Assembly (NCBI RefSeq): GCF_022808865.1
Contig: NZ_JAKZLB010000004.1
Location: 310,001-374,000 of the forward strand
From: Geothrix oryzisoli
GTDB lineage: Bacteria; Acidobacteriota; Holophagae; Holophagales; Holophagaceae
Reading direction: 5' to 3'
DNA length: 64,000 nucleotides
Within the stretch, counting starts at the first letter, position 1. Each line of letters opens with the position of its first letter. The position numbers and the translations under genes were made by a program. Shown here one piece after another: positions 56,600 through 64,000 of the stretch. The notes under the pieces were generated by a model that saw only the letters and a program-made list of their open reading frames with translations, was not told the DNA's origin and searched no databases.

Positions 56600-56674
<75 letters not shown>

Positions 56675-56684
56675 CAAACCCAAG

Positions 56685-56955: not shown

Positions 56956-57762
56956 ATGCCCAAGCTCAGATTCCAAACTGAAACGAGTGAAGCCCGACCT
57001 ATTCCGCCTCAAGGCCTTTTCTCCGTGATGTGTTGGCCTCAAGAACCAGAGAAGATGAAGGGCTTCCTCGGAGTGGAATTCTTCAGGCTCATGGAACAGG
57101 CGGATGCCCAACCTCAATTGAGAGACAATCCCGACTTCATCCAGGGGCTCGAATTCATTCGGAAACAACTCGGGGGCTGGACTTCTATCTCAAACATGCC
57201 TAAATCGCACGAGGTCTTTGCAGATATGAAGAACCGCATGATGCGCGGTAATTGGGTCGGTGGAACCCTCTGCATGGCCTATATCCTCCGGAAGAACCAC
57301 TCCGGGCAGATCGAGGGGGAGATTTCCTTGAGAAGGCTCTGGACGTTCCTCTTCCAAACGAGAAATCAGTACTTCCCAAAACCCCCCAAGAAGGAGGCCC
57401 TGAGAGAAGCCTGGGATGAATTCAAATCTGTAGCCCACCTCTGGGCAGCGAACTTTTTTATCAACCAATGGATGGCAGAAACCCTCGCTGATCGTACGAA
57501 AGAGAGCCTCGTTCATTTGGAGATCCAGTCTCCCACCCAAGAGACCGTTACTGAGATTATCCTCTCTCATCACGTCCCATTAGTGCTGGCGCTGGCGAAG
57601 GACTTTGAAGAATTTGGACTGAACTTCAAACCGTCACATTCACGGAAGCCACTGCTCGATCCAGAACGTCTGTGGACCTTGGAGGATGTTCCAAACAGGA
57701 GTTTTCCATTTCCCAAAATCATCCTGAGTGACCAAATTCTAGAAATATTCAACGACGCCTAG
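56956..57762 (+). CDS. Hypothetical protein of the accessory region
   Basis: I recognise no family. The 268-residue protein is soluble, mixed alpha/beta and rich in Phe and Trp (GTLCMAYILRKNHSGQIEGEISLRRLWTFLFQ, FKSVAHLWAANFFINQWMAETL). No catalytic motif, signal or membrane helix is visible. Codon use and base composition are clearly more A+T-rich than the genes before the tRNA, which suggests horizontal transfer. It is followed by an excisionase-like gene and a rolling-circle Rep gene, so it may be cargo or a partner of that element. Confidence 0.6.
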   Translation: MPKLRFQTETSEARPIPPQGLFSVMCWPQEPEKMKGFLGVEFFRLMEQADAQPQLRDNPDFIQGLEFIRKQLGGWTSISNMPKSHEVFADMKNRMMRGNWVGGTLCMAYILRKNHSGQIEGEISLRRLWTFLFQTRNQYFPKPPKKEALREAWDEFKSVAHLWAANFFINQWMAETLADRTKESLVHLEIQSPTQETVTEIILSHHVPLVLALAKDFEEFGLNFKPSHSRKPLLDPERLWTLEDVPNRSFPFPKIILSDQILEIFNDA

Positions 57763-57784
57763 ACCGGCAAATATGATCGTTTCC

Positions 57785-57840
57785 ACTGTGGGGATGACTC
57801 CCCCCACAGTCATCACTGTTCGCCTCTCTTCCCCCACAGT
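57785..57840. repeat. Inverted/direct CCCCACAGT repeats upstream of the excisionase-like gene
   Basis: Three copies of CCCCACAGT occur within 56 bases: an inverted one at 57785-57793 (ACTGTGGGG), one at 57802-57810 and one at 57832-57840. The first two form a stem of nine pairs with an eight-base loop. They sit 60-115 bases before the start of the AlpA-like gene and could be its operator, or iterons of the element's origin. Confidence 0.5.
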
Positions 57841-57901
57841 TGTGAAATCCTGATGCTTCCTCATGACGCTCGAATGCATCCGAGCCCTTGAGGAGATCCA
57901 C

Positions 57902-58108
57902 ATGGACAACAAAGAAACATCCCCTGCAAAAGCCGCCTACAGCATCGCGGAATTCTGCGGACTCGTGAGCCTGGGCCGGTCGCGGGTCTTTGAAGAGATT
58001 CGCGAGAAGCGCCTTCGCATTGTGAAGGTCGGGCGCAGGACTTTGATTCCTGCGACGGAGGTAAGCGCCTGGCTTGAACGCTTGGCCGGTGAACCGGTTC
58101 GAGCCTAG
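57902..58108 (+). CDS. AlpA/excisionase-like helix-turn-helix protein
   Basis: The 68-residue protein is one MerR-like winged helix of the HTH_17/AlpA type (YSIAEFCGLVSLGRSRVFEEIREKRLRIVKVGRRTLIPATEVSAWLERL). Such proteins act as excisionases or as transcription regulators of mobile elements. GAGGAG six bases before the ATG at 57902 fixes this start; an upstream ATG at 57863 lacks one. It stands directly before the Rep gene and after repeats it may bind. Confidence 0.8.
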   Translation: MDNKETSPAKAAYSIAEFCGLVSLGRSRVFEEIREKRLRIVKVGRRTLIPATEVSAWLERLAGEPVRA

Positions 58109-58126
58109 AACATCGTCGATGAACCT

Positions 58127-58180
58127 GGGGGGCCGCGAGGCCCCCCTAGTCTTGACTAGGGCGCAACATTTTTCGCGCCC
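58127..58180. other. Three consecutive hairpins, candidate rolling-circle nick site
   Basis: Directly before the Rep gene, three hairpins are packed in 54 bases: GGGGGGCC/GGCCCCCC (58127-58146), CCTAGT-CTTG-ACTAGG (58145-58160) and GGGCGC/GCGCCC with a ten-base A/T loop (58159-58180). The loop of the middle hairpin shows CTTG followed by A, the same core as the nick site of pC194-type plasmids. This placement fits a double-strand origin for the HUH protein encoded next. The role is inferred. Confidence 0.55.
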
Positions 58181-58203
58181 GGTCCCTAGGTTTGGGGCAA
58201 CAG

Positions 58204-60123
58204 ATGACTTGGCAATTCAGGAATCAATCCACAGGAAGTCGGCCTCATCCGCTAGAGGTTGCTGAAGCTCTGAGCCTCAGCATTGAACAGGATCTCCAGA
58301 AGCGGGTGCTTGATCCCAACAGCGCGGTTGATCTCCTCGCCTTGGCCCGCATGGGGAGGCGATGGGGGTACTTCGAGGCCGCTGCGGGGGCCGAGAAGAG
58401 TTCTGGTCCTCACCATCGCCTTCCTCTGGAGGAAGTGGCGCGTTGGATTCGGGATCAAGTGAGCCCCTATCCAGACCTCTTCAAAGAGGTGGTTGAGGCC
58501 TGTAAAGCACTCGAAAAAAGATTTCTACTGGCTGATGTCAAGCGCCTGGAGAGCTGTGGGACAGTCTGGTGGTCGCAGCATATCGTGCGGGTTTTCTGGA
58601 AAGACCGGCATGGGCACGAGCGCCTCCGGCGGCAGATCGGAATTCATCGCTGTAAACATGCCTGGTGCCCCACTTGTGGGCGCTCACGCCAGGCCCAACT
58701 CACAGCAGAGATCGAACGGATGCTCATTCTGTCGCGAGACTTTGGACTTCATGAAGGGCATGGGCGATTGGTTACGTTGACTGTTCCGAATGGGCGTTGC
58801 ATCTACACCTTGAGAGAACAGGCACACAAAGCCTTTGCAAAACTTCAGCGAACAAGATGGTGGAACCGGTTCGCCTTTGGTTGGGTGCGTGGATCGGAAG
58901 TGGTGACAGGACAGGATGGAGACTGGAACCTGCATGTGCACCTGCTTGTTATTTTTTGGGCACCAAAGGTGAGCTATCAACAGCTCGGGAGAGTGTGGAC
59001 CCAGGAGCTTGGAGGTACCCGCGAGAATGGCCGGAGGTTCGTTGTTGATTGTGAAAGTCTCGAATCCAAACGCTGGGGCCGGAAGGATGGTCGACCCGGG
59101 GATTTGAAAAGACGGGGCGGCCTCGTCAGGGCCGCCCGATATATCTTCAAATACCTAACCAAGGCCGAGGACCTCAAGAACCTTCGTGGAGGGCCAGGGG
59201 GATTGGCCCATCTGGTTGGAGCTACGAAAGGCCTGCGCAAATTCTCCGTTGGAGGAGGTTGCTCTGTGCTTCGGAGGGCGGCCAATACACTTCTTCCATC
59301 ACGAATGTTCCAGGCTGAAGAAGCTCTCGCAGGTACCTACCTGAACCAGGGCCGGCCGCCATGGCGTGTCGAGGTGGTCAACCCGGAAACCGGGGAAATT
59401 CGAGATGGACCTCCGGAACGCCTGAAGGACCCTCGTCAGGGGGCTCTGGAGCGGTGGGGGGAGATCTTGGAGACCAATCCCATACCGACCCAAGGGCAGG
59501 CTCTCCCGGGTCGTGTGGTGGGGGTTCCCTGTGGACCCCGGGGAAGGTACCGACGCGCTGGCGTAATGCCTCTTGCAGGCCTTGGTCCCACAGTCGTGGA
59601 ATTTGAACGAAGGGGGAATGCATCAATCTGCGGTGTCCGCGCACTCTTGGGAGAATGGAAGGTGAAACGTTGGCAAGAGCAAAGCCAGAAGAGCGCAAGG
59701 ACCCTCAAATTTGCCGCTGTCCTGCCATCAAAGCGCTACAGCTGGGGGAGGGCCCAAGCAGCCATTAAGGCGGCCCTGGCGCATGGGGCAGATGGCTGGA
59801 CCAACATGCGCCTAGCAGCGAATAGGGAAGCCAGCTCTATTCTCTTGGACCCCCTTGCGCGTTTGGATGCCCATCGTGCCCTGATGGCGAACCTTCCCAA
59901 CACCGAGGATCAAGCAAAAGTAGAGGTTAAGAATGCATGCGATTTGGCCAAGGAGCGAATCCAGGACCTAGCCTATGAACAATTCGCGGATGGCCATGCG
60001 AATGCGCACCTTGAAAACCTCCTGCATCTCGTAAGACACCCCAATACTTGCTGGAAGGCCCTTGCACTCGATCAGCACCCCCTCCCTCCACTGGCAATCA
60101 CGGGAGTTGACGTATCTCGTTAA
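58204..60123 (+). CDS. HUH-endonuclease rolling-circle Rep protein
   Basis: The 639-residue protein has the hallmarks of a Rep_1-type replication initiator: a zinc-finger-like RCKHAWCPTCGRSRQAQ (Cys150, Cys155, Cys158), motif 1 RLVTLTVPNG (188-197), the HUH motif WNLHVHLLV (His244, His246) and motif 3 ARYIFKYLTK (313-320) with candidate catalytic tyrosines Tyr313 and Tyr317. Such enzymes nick one DNA strand, stay covalently bound through Tyr and start rolling-circle replication or transposition. It is much longer than plasmid Reps (250-330 residues). The C-terminal half (about 330-639) has no helicase motif I can see. It is preceded by packed hairpins. Confidence 0.82.
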   Translation: MTWQFRNQSTGSRPHPLEVAEALSLSIEQDLQKRVLDPNSAVDLLALARMGRRWGYFEAAAGAEKSSGPHHRLPLEEVARWIRDQVSPYPDLFKEVVEACKALEKRFLLADVKRLESCGTVWWSQHIVRVFWKDRHGHERLRRQIGIHRCKHAWCPTCGRSRQAQLTAEIERMLILSRDFGLHEGHGRLVTLTVPNGRCIYTLREQAHKAFAKLQRTRWWNRFAFGWVRGSEVVTGQDGDWNLHVHLLVIFWAPKVSYQQLGRVWTQELGGTRENGRRFVVDCESLESKRWGRKDGRPGDLKRRGGLVRAARYIFKYLTKAEDLKNLRGGPGGLAHLVGATKGLRKFSVGGGCSVLRRAANTLLPSRMFQAEEALAGTYLNQGRPPWRVEVVNPETGEIRDGPPERLKDPRQGALERWGEILETNPIPTQGQALPGRVVGVPCGPRGRYRRAGVMPLAGLGPTVVEFERRGNASICGVRALLGEWKVKRWQEQSQKSARTLKFAAVLPSKRYSWGRAQAAIKAALAHGADGWTNMRLAANREASSILLDPLARLDAHRALMANLPNTEDQAKVEVKNACDLAKERIQDLAYEQFADGHANAHLENLLHLVRHPNTCWKALALDQHPLPPLAITGVDVSR

Positions 60124-60241: not shown

Positions 60242-60421
60242 CTCCAACACGGTTCCAACACAGCTCCAACACGGTTCGAACCTGGTTCCAACGCGGTTCG
60301 AACACGACCCGAACACGATCGGCTCATACACCGCTCGCACATGGCTCGCATACGGCCCGTGCATAGCTCGCACACGGCCCGTGCACAGCTCGCACACGAC
60401 TCACGTACCGCTCGTACACGG
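60242..60421. repeat. Degenerate 11-bp direct repeat array in two blocks
   Basis: Seven units of 11 bp (consensus YTCSAACACGG) run from 60242 to 60318. After a 15-base interruption, eight more units (consensus CTCGCACACGG, alternating with CCCGTGCACAG) run from 60334 to 60421. Because the period is 11 bases, all three frames stay open and give false reading frames. The spacing is close to one DNA turn, as in plasmid centromeres such as R1 parC (11-bp repeats in two blocks). No parM/parR-like genes are next to it. Confidence 0.8.
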
Positions 60422-60423
60422 CT

Positions 60424-60829
60424 CTACACCACTGGCAGTATTAACTCAGGCCCATCATTCCTGGGGTTCCCCACGGCCTTCCCCACTGGATGGGCTGCCA
60501 TCAGATCCGGGGGGATAAGGGACAAGCATGGGCTGGACCTCTTTAACCTGAGCTGCTTGGTCGAGCCAGGGGCCCACGCGTCCTTGGGCAGGATTGCGGG
60601 CATCCGGTTATGGATTCCGGCCATTAGTTCGTTCGTTTCCCTGGTGACGATGCAGGCGCTAATCATGACCTCGCCATTCAGCCCCTGCCAATCCTCCAAC
60701 AAGCTCACGAACGCGAAGAGCTCTCCATCGATGGGGTGGATATTGAACGGCTGTTTCTCCTTAGGGGACCAGCCCGAAGGCTTCCGTCAGGCTCTCGGCG
60801 CTAAAGGTGAAGGTGTAGCGGCCGCACAT
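60424..60829 (-). pseudogene. SRAP-domain (YedK/HMCES-like) pseudogene with central deletion
   Basis: SRAP proteins crosslink to abasic sites in single-stranded DNA through Cys2. The minus strand begins MCGRYTFTFSAESLTEAFGLVP (60829-60764), a typical start with the catalytic Cys, then hits a stop. In another frame, the C-terminal half continues (EKQPFNIHPIDGELFAF, TRETNELMAGIHNRMPAILP, GNPRNDGPELI). Around 70 central residues are missing and the two parts are out of frame, so the gene is dead. Intact homologues are about 220 residues. It marks decay in the accessory region. Confidence 0.8.
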
Positions 60830-61160: not shown

Positions 61161-61231
61161 TAGGCCCATCCTATTATTCGTTTAGGCGAACCTGCCGGGT
61201 CTTAGGCCTATCCCCTTATTCAAAGTTAGGC
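61161..61231 (+). repeat. Two direct repeats ending in the integron core (attI-like or old attC remnant)
   Basis: Two similar 27-29-base segments start TAGGCC(C/T)ATCC and continue with TTATTC; the first (61161-61187) ends TTTAGGC and the second (61203-61231) ends GTTAGGC, the integron crossover core. The second core sits 20 bases before the first cassette gene, the usual position. The segment could be attI, which often has direct repeats, or a degenerate attC. No integrase is seen within the window. Confidence 0.5.
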
Positions 61232-61251
61232 ATCCCCTCATCAGGTGAAAC

Positions 61252-62541
61252 ATGTCCTCGCCTCTTACGGACCTAGACGAATTGGTACTTTCTTGTCGGG
61301 ACGAAAGGGCTAAGGCATACCTCTTTGAAGCTGTCTCAAGCTATCGTGCTGGGGCATTTAGGTCTGCGATTGTTGGGACCTGGATCGCCGTGTGTTTCGA
61401 CATCATCGACAAAATTCGCGAACTCTCAATAGCAGGTGACACCGAAGCAGAAAAACAGGCTGAAGAGCTTGAAAAAATTAGAAAAGAAGGCGACATCTCT
61501 AGGGCACTCAGGTTTGAGAAGGATCTACTGGTGCTCGCACGAGATCGTTTTGAGCTACTATCGCCTATCGAATTTATCGATTTAGAAAGGCTTCAAACAG
61601 ATAGAAATAGATGCGCGCATCCATCCTTGGTTGCGGAAGACCAGGCGTATGCGCCTTCAGCAGAGCTTGCAAGAGCTCACATACATTCTGCAGTTACACA
61701 TCTCCTCCAACACCCACCGGCGCAAGGGAAATATGCTTTGCAGCGCCTTACAAACGAAGTTGATTCCGAATATTTTCCTACGAAAGAATCACAGGCCATC
61801 ATTGCATTCTCTTCTGGCCCGCTCCGGAAGCCAAGAGAATCACTCGTTCGCAACTTTACAATCGTACTCATTAAAAAAATGGTTAAAGAAGACCTCGACT
61901 ATAAGCAACGATACAAAATCACTGCTGCGTTATCAGCAATATCTAAAATGCATCCAGGTCACTATCACAATACCATCGCATCTAAGCTATCCCATCTGAT
62001 TCGCGCATTAGATGACACTGAATTAATTCGTGCGATTCATCTCCTAACTTTTGGTGTTCCAGATTGTTGGGGAAATCTTGAATTGGATATTCAACAACGA
62101 CTACAAAACTACGTAAAAATGCTTCCGTCAGATACTTTTGAAGAGATCGAAGGCATCCTATCTTTCGAACCATTGCGGGCCATTGCCGAAGAACGGGTGA
62201 ATCGAGCAACACGTGATGACTTCAAGAATACCTATTTCTTTGAACTCCCGGGGCAAATTGCAGATCGCTTGATTGACCTGTATCTATCCTCTCGGTCCTT
62301 CGATCAGGCCAATGCGCTTGGCAAACAACTCATGATGAATGCCAGTGATTTAACCCCTGTCCATATACATCGCATCCTCGAAGGTGTTCAAAACAATAGC
62401 GAAGTACGATACAGTTTTGAACTTAATCCTCTGATTACTTCGATTCGTGCTCGAAAACAAATTCCAGAATCCGAACTCGACGATCTTCTTGCCAGCAATG
62501 GGCTATCAGAGTTTGTCTCTGTAGGGTCCCAGGATGCCTAA
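61252..62541 (+). CDS. HEPN-domain-like protein encoded by an integron cassette
   Basis: The 429-residue protein starts with a HEPN-like helical region (KAYLFEAVSSYRAGAFRSAIVGTWIAVCFDIIDKIREL) and has the R-x4-H motif RNRCAH at residues 118-123 (Arg118, His123), the active-site signature of HEPN ribonucleases. The C-terminal 280 residues are helical and not recognised. Many HEPN proteins are toxins or antiviral RNases. The gene lies inside an integron cassette: the core GTTAGGC is 20 bases upstream, and the stop codon overlaps the attC start. Base composition is strikingly A+T-rich versus the chromosome. The fold is inferred from pattern, not alignment. Confidence 0.7.
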   Translation: MSSPLTDLDELVLSCRDERAKAYLFEAVSSYRAGAFRSAIVGTWIAVCFDIIDKIRELSIAGDTEAEKQAEELEKIRKEGDISRALRFEKDLLVLARDRFELLSPIEFIDLERLQTDRNRCAHPSLVAEDQAYAPSAELARAHIHSAVTHLLQHPPAQGKYALQRLTNEVDSEYFPTKESQAIIAFSSGPLRKPRESLVRNFTIVLIKKMVKEDLDYKQRYKITAALSAISKMHPGHYHNTIASKLSHLIRALDDTELIRAIHLLTFGVPDCWGNLELDIQQRLQNYVKMLPSDTFEEIEGILSFEPLRAIAEERVNRATRDDFKNTYFFELPGQIADRLIDLYLSSRSFDQANALGKQLMMNASDLTPVHIHRILEGVQNNSEVRYSFELNPLITSIRARKQIPESELDDLLASNGLSEFVSVGSQDA

Positions 62542-62658
62542 CCCTCCGCTTAACTCGGACCCCGCCTGCATTGCATCCCCTCCCTCTCAAACTCCCGCTT
62601 CCTCGGCTCCGCTCAGCGCCTCGGTGCAGGCGGGGCCGGTTAGCTTCATTCGTTAGGC
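62536..62658 (+). other. Integron attC recombination site (complete)
   Basis: The 123-base site runs from GCCTAAC (R'', 62536-62542, overlapping the stop of the HEPN gene) to GTTAGGC (R', 62652-62658). Internal arms pair perfectly over CCCCGCCTGCA/TGCAGGCGGGG, with outer TTAACTCGG and CCGGTTAGC as the L boxes. This fits the imperfect hairpin recognised by the integron integrase in single-stranded form. The terminal loop is long and pyrimidine-rich, as in large chromosomal-integron attC sites. Confidence 0.88.
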
Positions 62659-62685
62659 AGCTTCATCAACCAAACAGGAGTAGTC

Positions 62686-63018
62686 ATGGCGCGATTGACC
62701 AGATTTCTTCTTGTTGTTGTTCTCGCCGCTTTCACGGCCACCCAAGCTCACGCTTGCGATAAGGCTGCTGCGAAAAAGGCCTTGGCCAAGATGCGCCCGT
62801 ATATCGTCGCCAGTGTCGCAGTAGAAGACGGGTGGGTGGTAGTCACCCTTGGACAGGACTACTTCTCCTGGTCCGACCGGCAAACGGAAGGGATCGTCAC
62901 CACGTATGCAAACGCTGATGCCTGCGTAACAGGCCAAGCTCGAAGTTTAGAATTCCGTTCTCCATCGGGGAAATTGGTGGCTCGTGCCGACCGGCTTCGC
63001 GGTATTCAAATGAAATAG
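62686..63018 (+). CDS. Small secreted protein in the second integron cassette
   Basis: The 110-residue precursor has a signal peptide (RLTRFLLVVVLAAFTATQAHA) and an 86-residue mature part with two Cys (CDKAAAKKALAKM and ADACVTGQ) that could form a disulfide. No family is recognised. AGGAG six bases before the ATG. The gene starts 28 bases after the crossover core and ends 17 bases before a truncated attC, so it is a bona fide cassette cargo gene. Confidence 0.75.
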   Translation: MARLTRFLLVVVLAAFTATQAHACDKAAAKKALAKMRPYIVASVAVEDGWVVVTLGQDYFSWSDRQTEGIVTTYANADACVTGQARSLEFRSPSGKLVARADRLRGIQMK

Positions 63019-63034
63019 CATTGTGGCCCAAGTT

Positions 63035-63115
63035 GCCTAACCCTCCGCTCAACTCGGACCCCGCCTACATTGCCTTCCGCTCTTTCTCTTCGTTTCGCTT
63101 CCTCGGCTCTGCTCA
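63035..63115 (+). other. Truncated integron attC site
   Basis: The left part, from GCCTAAC at 63035, is nearly identical to the complete attC over the first 30 bases (GCCTAACCCTCCGCT, AACTCGGACCCCGCCT) and again near GCTTCCTCGGCTC. After about 63115 the similarity stops: the L' and R' boxes, ending GTTAGGC, are absent. The array was cut here and joined to unrelated sequence carrying a gene on the other strand. Confidence 0.75.
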
Positions 63116-63186
63116 AGTCAGGCACTAATACCGTTGAGATACGGATTGCCTTTCATTTTGCGCGGGAAAAACTTTCCATACATGAA

Positions 63187-64000
63187 TCACTCATGCATAG
63201 TTTGGACTCTTTCTGCTTCTCGAAGATAGGATTCGGAAAGCTCCCGCATCGTAGCAGCGAGTCGAACATACCCGGCGAGGTCGGCTGCTCTTCCCCTCTC
63301 TTGATACCGGGCTGCGAGATCTCTTTCAGGCTTGCCCTCCGGGTCAACCCAGTGGACCCCCCGCGAATTGAATTCACCCATTCTAAATCCGGACCTAATC
63401 AGCTCCGCATCCTTTGCATCAAGAACCTTGGCGACCGCTCGATTAATCCAAAAGCCATCGAGATCCGCAGGGGCGTGAATCAACACCTCGCCAAGAGTCA
63501 GCAAAGCAGGCCTAAGACGTCCGTTCGAAGCACAGGTGTCACGAACCACCGAGATCCATTTTTCAAGGGCGGCTTCATTGAAAGTCCCGTCTGGATTCAT
63601 CCCCGGTGGGATGGCCCAGCCTCTTAATAGATGATAGGCATTGGATGCGTTTGCCTTCTCTCGGTCAGTGAGCTCTGACTGCGCTTTTTCTTGGTCCTCC
63701 GGGCGGTAGAGGATCTCTATCATTTCGATATATCTTGCTGGGTCTCTTGACAGTGATTCCCATAGGCCTCTGGGGGTAATCCCGAAGTGGTGTTCGAAGA
63801 ATGGCAAGTATGTCCATTCAATTGCAATAAGGTCGTCAATAGAGGTTTGGGGTGATTCCTGGAGGTGCTTGATCACTTCTCCAACGCTGTAGAAATCTAT
63901 AGCGAGAAGCTGATCTTCACGGGTAGCAACTTCCAACAGGGATTTCACTGCAATCTGTTCATCAAACGGCAGGCGTTCATGCACCATTCGTTTAATGCAT
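63187..64000 (-). CDS. Hypothetical protein, C-terminal part (runs off the window)
   Basis: The frame is open to the right edge without a stop, so at least 266 and probably more residues are encoded; the ATG at 63987 may be internal. The product is helical and soluble, with a notable IRSGFRMGEFNSRGVHWVD segment and a closing YVRLAATMRELSESYLREAERV helix. From memory, similar C-termini occur in large multidomain proteins of defence islands, but I cannot confirm this. It lies opposite to the cassette array and directly after its truncated attC. Confidence 0.55.
   Translation of the reverse strand, partial: CIKRMVHERLPFDEQIAVKSLLEVATREDQLLAIDFYSVGEVIKHLQESPQTSIDDLIAIEWTYLPFFEHHFGITPRGLWESLSRDPARYIEMIEILYRPEDQEKAQSELTDREKANASNAYHLLRGWAIPPGMNPDGTFNEAALEKWISVVRDTCASNGRLRPALLTLGEVLIHAPADLDGFWINRAVAKVLDAKDAELIRSGFRMGEFNSRGVHWVDPEGKPERDLAARYQERGRAADLAGYVRLAATMRELSESYLREAERVQTMHE

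Follow-up and report, generated by a model that had tools for sequence, protein, structure and literature searches.

A candidate rolling-circle replicon of provirus type in a tRNA-Val-integrated element of Geothrix oryzisoli

The AlpA-like and Rep genes beside a tRNA-Val gene of Geothrix oryzisoli very likely belong to an integrative mobile element of 12,075 bp, of which they occupy the left side: a defence island that would live by excising and replicating itself, with a Rep, an origin and a repeat array of the type found in certain proviruses. Because its integrase and AlpA are those of a family of Geothrix islands and its Rep and origin are common to proviruses, the element would join a defence-island chassis to a virus-type rolling-circle replicon. 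The window, that is, the whole stretch of 64,000 nucleotides analysed (G000:C4:310001-374000), covers this left part, and the right end and the integrase lie outside it (Table 1). As an integrative island the element is of a known kind; its replicon appears to be new, and neither the replicon nor the element was found described in the literature searched, of which our coverage was partial.

Integration site, architecture and cargo

The element runs from 56630 past the end of the window, up to G000:C4 378750, and is delimited by 46-bp perfect repeats of the tRNA-Val 3' end, with a 481-aa tyrosine integrase adjoining attR (Pfam E 3.6e-24). Directly after tRNA-Val the GC content drops to 47-59%, against 63-74% elsewhere in the window. 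The element is present as a single copy in the genome, and its integrase and Rep frames are intact. When the BamA locus was compared across 47 genomes, seven had glmS, tRNA-Val and BamA in one short locus without the element, and the flanks of the window genome, once joined, can be aligned with G014 straight across the junction (89% identity, 643 columns); the tRNA-Val site is therefore variable. Other islands occupy it elsewhere, integrase relatives adjoining BamA in G024, G025, G002 and G010. Integrase, att direct repeats and empty sites in relatives, the hallmarks of an integrative element at a tRNA gene, are thus all present, in agreement with a sequence-only reading of this DNA, which had suggested that the locus may be an integrative element. 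That reading had also placed an AlpA-like gene near the tRNA, correctly; the segment it singled out (57763-60123) does hold AlpA and Rep but is only part of the whole. Nor are Rep homologues stable core genes beside an unvarying tRNA: they are rare (three of 396 genomes of the phylum, the window genome included) and linked to integration.

Table 1. Features of the element and its integration site, in window coordinates unless another contig or locus is named
Feature	Position	Strand	Basis
tRNA-Val (gac), integration target	56600..56674	+	ARAGORN
attL, 46-bp perfect direct repeat	56630..56675	+	repeat comparison; empty sites in relatives
26-bp repeat with tandem GCGTCAAAA	56728..56753	.	second copy just inside right end
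268-aa protein	56956..57762	+	ORF
Two CCCCCACAGT and one inverted ACTGTGGGG, candidate operator of alpA-rep unit	57785..57840	.	inference
AlpA-like HTH protein, candidate excisionase/regulator	57863..58108	+	Pfam HTH_17 (PF12728); PHROG excisionase; sister-island homologues
Candidate double-strand origin	58127..58180	+	blastn block, pairing, folding, pattern search
HUH (Rep_1) rolling-circle initiator, 639 aa, Y-x3-Y type	58204..60123	+	Pfam, homologues, motifs, fold model
About 16 degenerate 11-bp repeats, iteron-like	60243..60424	.	
Decayed gene, presumably SRAP/YedK-type	60424..60708	-	ORF lists compared by eye
PD-T7-3 anti-phage defence protein, 429 aa	61252..62541	+	PADLOC
attC-like site (GCCTAAC ... 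GTTAGGC) after PD-T7-3 gene	62536..62658	+	inference
110-aa small protein between attC-like repeats	62686..63018	+	ORF; repeats
1267-aa protein, C-terminal part in window	63187..64000	-	whole ORF L004 8188-11991; PHROG 18693-like
attR, second 46-bp copy (beyond window)	G000:C4 378705-378750 (L004 13706-13751)		

The tandem GCGTCAAAA repeats inside both ends are candidate arm-type integrase sites, a reading suggested by the analogous tandem repeats that sister islands hold just inside both of their own ends (e.g., TCATACGGAAAATATACGGAAA in L032). Several element-free genomes carry a duplicate of the tRNA-Val 3' end about 171 bp downstream (L092, at 700 and 871; also L093, L103 and L107), possibly the scar of earlier integrations.

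The gene order is the 268-aa protein, AlpA, origin, Rep, 11-bp array, decayed SRAP-type gene, PD-T7-3, 110-aa protein, 1267-aa protein and integrase. The 268-aa protein has no significant match in Pfam, PHROG or PADLOC; the AlpA-like ORF matches Pfam HTH_17 at E 4e-6, barely above the cut-off, and a PHROG excisionase at E 5e-4. Among the larger ORFs of the element none was recognised by Pfam, PHROG or PADLOC as a primase, relaxase, FtsK-type translocase, terminase or capsid. What we take to be an SRAP/YedK-type gene is decayed, so the element may be partly defective; an apparently intact homologue is present in sister island L078 (12384-13052).

Two genes would represent cargo that protects the host. 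One matches the PADLOC model for PD-T7-3 (E 2.6e-31, residues 8-385), a system discovered through functional selection in E. coli (PMC9519451), and this similarity suggests a defensive role; the 1267-aa gene probably has a similar one. The latter protein is matched at 23% by a 6.6-kb phage record, itself an unverified, unannotated linear scaffold, and has a distant paralogue (24% identity) on the same contig (G000:C4:246431-250072), relatives of which are absent from the 59 other genomes searched. The PD-T7-3 and 110-aa genes resemble integron gene cassettes (61225-63116), with GTTAGGC at 61225, 5' of PD-T7-3, and, at 63027-63115, a further attC-like copy that is partly decayed; we saw no integron integrase within the element.

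The Rep protein and its candidate origin

The catalytic part of Rep matches Rep_1 (PF01446) at E 1.1e-15, with 58.3 bits against a curated cut-off of 33.2, which excludes a chance match. Every feature expected of the family is present: motif 1, LVTLTVPNG (189), the HUH motif as HVH (244-246) and the catalytic tyrosines as Y313-x3-Y317, along with a zinc-like C150-x4-C155-x2-C158; the cysteines, two histidines and two tyrosines are invariant in two homologues. The first reading of this sequence had recognised the 639-residue protein with its zinc finger, HVH and Y-x3-Y, and all of these motifs were recovered. The ATG at 58204 yields the 639 residues; a longer frame of 643, whose TTG lies right where the origin-like region ends, is the less likely alternative.

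Over about 560 residues, Rep shares 42-43% identity with the Reps of two Geothrix proviruses (G008 and G024). The match spans query residues 19-568 and so most of the C-terminus is conserved; the earlier statement that the C-terminal 300 residues match nothing holds in that they hit no Pfam family, but not with respect to these two relatives. Similarly, Rep was rightly called long, being about twice the size of Rep_1 plasmid Reps, but it is less unusual than supposed, as Geothrix repeatedly has Rep_1 proteins of 508-661 aa, three being provirus-encoded. BLAST matched Rep to none of the remaining eight Rep_1 loci in the genus, and no relatives were found in viral contigs, phages or plasmids at E 1e-3 to 1e-5 in single-sequence and profile searches. 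When E values as high as 1 are admitted, the provirus Rep has marginal hits to Reps of inoviruses and of Propionibacterium phage B5 (22-30%, over a third of the query or less).

Structure prediction agrees with an HUH fold without amounting to proof by itself, and the sequence family and motifs carry most of the weight. A model of the whole Rep built from three sequences was poor (mean pLDDT 38), and that of the catalytic part reached a mean pLDDT of 56 (core 62-78), with the predicted order strand-helices-strand-strand(HVH)-helix-strand-helix(Tyr). The top PDB alignment (VIA) of this low-confidence HUH-domain model was 2x3g, SIRV1 ORF119 (Z 8.2, 116 residues, rmsd 4.4), which we take to be an HUH Rep, so that the model does not point to the absence of the fold, which would have told against the original proposal. 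The low-confidence model also aligned with TYLCV Rep 7vg8 (Z 6.1) and pKM101 TraI 8a1b (Z 6.0), tied with unrelated folds; Foldseek alone returned no significant match.

Just upstream of rep lies a block of 43-44 nt, 88% identical, that is common to the element and both proviruses and is the only DNA similarity that blastn reports between them. This hairpin-flanked block contains TAGTCTTGACT, a candidate nick site, and the candidate Rep target sequence at the origin is CCCTAGTCTTGACT. Its parts are a GC hairpin, the nick-type sequence TAGTCTTGACTA (58147-58158) and a second hairpin with a T-rich loop; an invariant CCCCTAGTCTTGACT is followed by GGCGCnACATTTTTCGCGCC, and in the GC hairpin upstream of the invariant sequence the arms differ between elements with pairing retained. 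Each origin segment folds better than 200 of 200 shuffles (z -2.8 to -3.8; the G024 segment taken without the upstream hairpin). Allowing up to three mismatches, the origin pattern occurs in three of 47 Geothrix genomes, exactly those with the Rep, and a reversed control occurs in none, a conservation that rests on three sequences, there being three Rep homologues in all. CTTG^A is the nick type of initiators of the pC194/phiX174 class, and the nick would be expected at TAGTCTTG^ACT, its exact position being a prediction. Taken with the Rep_1 initiator, this conserved origin-like sequence is consistent with a module of rolling-circle type, as originally suggested.

In five elements, whose replication proteins fall into three families, the replication gene is closely followed by a noncoding array with an 11-bp period: in the window (Table 1), in the G008 provirus (L007 12463-12527), in the G024 provirus, and in two islands (L079 3827-3893; L084 9862-9928). 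No other period-11 signal in the window or in either provirus is as strong, and the repeat unit of the G008 provirus (ATGGCGGGGGA) resembles that of island L079 (ATGGCCGGGGG). Elsewhere in the genus the motif common to these two, ATGGCSGGGGR, was met at five other places, all chance matches without arrays.

Proviruses and islands with shared components

Both relatives of Rep sit in proviruses, of 21.3 and 23.3 kb, integrated in tRNA-Arg with att repeats of 45 and 48 bp. Like the element, these have the Rep, the origin block and the 11-bp array downstream of rep; unlike it, they are 21-23 kb long, carry candidate virion genes and another integrase, and target tRNA-Arg. Their genes include one for an SLT transglycosylase that has a membrane segment, one for a transglutaminase-like protein and several for membrane proteins with a single span, and conserved proteins of 213/232 and 141 aa are candidate capsid components; the conserved genes include no Walker A ATPase. 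Neither the candidate capsid nor the transglutaminase-like proteins found a match in viral contigs. The combination of a transglycosylase and a rolling-circle Rep without a packaging ATPase recalls FLiP (PMC7654751), a superficial likeness drawn from gene content. None of the provirus structural gene block is found in the element, and only Rep and a weak integrase similarity are common to both.

The two proviruses, G008:C8 (L007+L009, 6714-28018 joined) and G024:C1 (L008+L010), form with a third, G020:C226 (L031), an undescribed group of temperate, apparently tailless Geothrix proviruses characterised by the SLT transglycosylase, the transglutaminase-like protein and the single-span membrane proteins; relatives of the group were not found in viral_contigs. 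The G020 provirus has a 508-aa Rep that is not detectably similar to those of G008 and G024, and the group therefore seems to swap its Rep.

By sequence comparison, the integrase and AlpA of the element belong to a widespread family of Geothrix islands that appears to exchange its replication module. Integrase relatives (E < 1e-40) occur in 32 of 100 related genomes and AlpA relatives in 26; integrases of the family are 43-57% identical to that of the element and AlpA proteins 38-64%, and the islands inserted in tRNA-Glu and tRNA-Ala are bounded by att repeats derived from those tRNAs. Seven islands were delimited complete with att repeats of this kind: L032 (12.6 kb, tRNA-Glu), with type III restriction (methylase confirmed by Pfam) and a small Rep_1; L078 (11.4 kb), with DUF927; L079 (19.2 kb), with DUF927 and a type I restriction system read from sequence; L083 (6.4 kb, tRNA-Ala); L084 (11.0 kb), with AAA_25; L086 (11.0 kb), with type I restriction, again read from sequence; and L030 (6.9 kb, tRNA-Thr), with AlpA, a small Rep_1 and a more distant integrase. 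An eighth, L085, whose ends were not found, has a TrwC-like relaxase. Restriction systems are frequent in the family. Since different replication genes occur on a common integrase/AlpA chassis, the island of the window would be one member of a modular family.

There is also a second Rep_1 lineage (269-304 aa), whose conserved surroundings include proteins of 122 aa and 360 aa (L035, L036 and L033). It adjoins type III restriction genes in L035 (G010:C65) and L036 (G000:C2:42000-61999), the two genomes being 79-94% identical there, and the L036 copy belongs to the window's own genome.

Proposed life style and its alternatives

In its integrase, directionality and replication logic the element works like an AICE or a PICMI and lacks one defining feature of each: it has no Tra, and it has no primase and does not sit at fis. 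With PICMI and other small AlpA phage satellites (P4-like, PICI) it shares small size and the set of integrase, AlpA (PF12728 or PF05930) and replication gene, together with protection against other phages, which for the element is predicted, and the lack of virion genes (PMC10803314). It differs from PICMI in having an HUH Rep_1 for the primase, tRNA-Val for fis and no known helper phage; among the ORFs tested none encodes a DUF3987/DUF5906 primase. AICEs of the pSAM2 type likewise have a tRNA att site, a tyrosine integrase, a directionality factor and a rolling-circle Rep whose nick site is of the pC194 type (PMC3218068), but they belong to another phylum and use an FtsK/SpoIIIE-type Tra, for which there is no match among the element's larger ORFs; the element, for its part, carries defence genes and a Rep related to provirus Reps. 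Plasmids such as pC194 and pUB110 have the same Rep_1 catalytic domain and an origin upstream of rep, but the element integrates by recombinase and its Rep is about twice as long and has the two tyrosines of Y-x3-Y, where pC194 RepA uses Tyr214 and Glu210 (PMC5703833).

We propose a life style of four steps, in which excision, replication and transfer are conjectural. First, the tyrosine integrase would recombine the 46-bp att core in the tRNA-Val 3' end, for which the anatomy is in place. Second, the AlpA-type protein, once induced, would assist the integrase in excision, releasing the element in circular form; the precedent is PICMI, in which alpA, int and prim are required, AlpA for both excision and replication, and expressing AlpA is enough for activation in the absence of phage (PMC10803314). 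Third, Rep would nick the circle in the hairpin-flanked origin 5' of rep and start rolling-circle replication, an activity suggested by its motifs and the conserved origin. Finally, as the element has no recognised gene for a capsid, for packaging or for conjugation, the amplified DNA would have to leave the cell with the help of another element, either by virus packaging or by conjugation with Rep as relaxase. We regard the whole as a small tRNA-integrated, satellite- or AICE-like island with a possible satellite tie to the virus group.

The conjugative route would make it an integrative mobilisable element: after excision and amplification by means of Rep, that protein would act as relaxase for export by the conjugation machine of another element. 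We consider this less likely than not. Actinobacterial AICEs bring together an integrase, Xis and a rolling-circle Rep at tRNA genes (PMC3218068), an interaction with the coupling protein of ICEBs1 is on record for the Rep_1 proteins of pC194, pUB110 and pTA1060 (PMC5714925), and in sister island L085 a TrwC-type relaxase takes the place of such a Rep; however, no FtsK/Tra, relaxase or type IV secretion gene was found in the larger ORFs, and no oriT was identified.

Slightly less likely still is the view that the element is a satellite of the G008/G024 virus group, its virus-type Rep and origin allowing its DNA, in single-stranded or circular form, to be replicated and packaged in virus particles. 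The 43% identity of Rep, the near identity of the origin and the position of the 11-bp array downstream of rep in all three would fit such a dependence, as would the contrast between proviruses with candidate virion genes and an element with none recognised; moreover, G024 holds both such a provirus and an island of the same integrase family at tRNA-Val. Yet this type of provirus, including its candidate capsid gene, is absent from the window's own genome, which consequently has no resident helper of the Rep-sharing kind; two other AlpA islands with Rep_1 have Reps not detectably similar to that of the element; no packaging signal is known; and module exchange explains the common replicon equally well. 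We consider unlikely the fuller version, in which the element has captured the origin and initiator of a tailless, probably membrane-containing, possibly ssDNA Acidobacteriota virus and is packaged by that virus; if true, it would define a satellite class built on HUH replication and not on a primase.

The common Rep, origin and array and the one decayed gene might also be what remains of a G008/G024-type provirus that has lost its structural genes. This is highly improbable, in that the integrase and AlpA group with the island family (at 43-57% and 38-64% identity) and resemble those of the proviruses at only about 26% or not detectably, the target tRNA is another one, and remnants of other viral genes are lacking. 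Kinship with single-strand transposons (IS91/ISCR/IS200-type), an alternative raised at the outset, in favour of which stand the HUH with two tyrosines and a weak zinc-binding match to Zn_Tnp_IS91 (E 0.035), can be dismissed almost entirely, being contradicted by the ends and empty sites: the element is a single copy bounded by tRNA att repeats beside a phage-type tyrosine integrase, in place of terminal oriIS/terIS without such an enzyme, and its origin-like block lies beside rep, inside the element and not at its ends.

A defence island with excision and rolling-circle replication of its own, the reading we prefer, would add a replication mode to the small AlpA-type defence islands, in which one and the same chassis is combined with modules of DUF927, AAA_25, TrwC-like and rolling-circle type. 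As its replication module is common to proviruses, the element offers a concrete system in which to probe whether such islands travel as satellites of HUH-replicating viruses, and it does so in the Acidobacteriota, a bacterial phylum with few described mobile elements.
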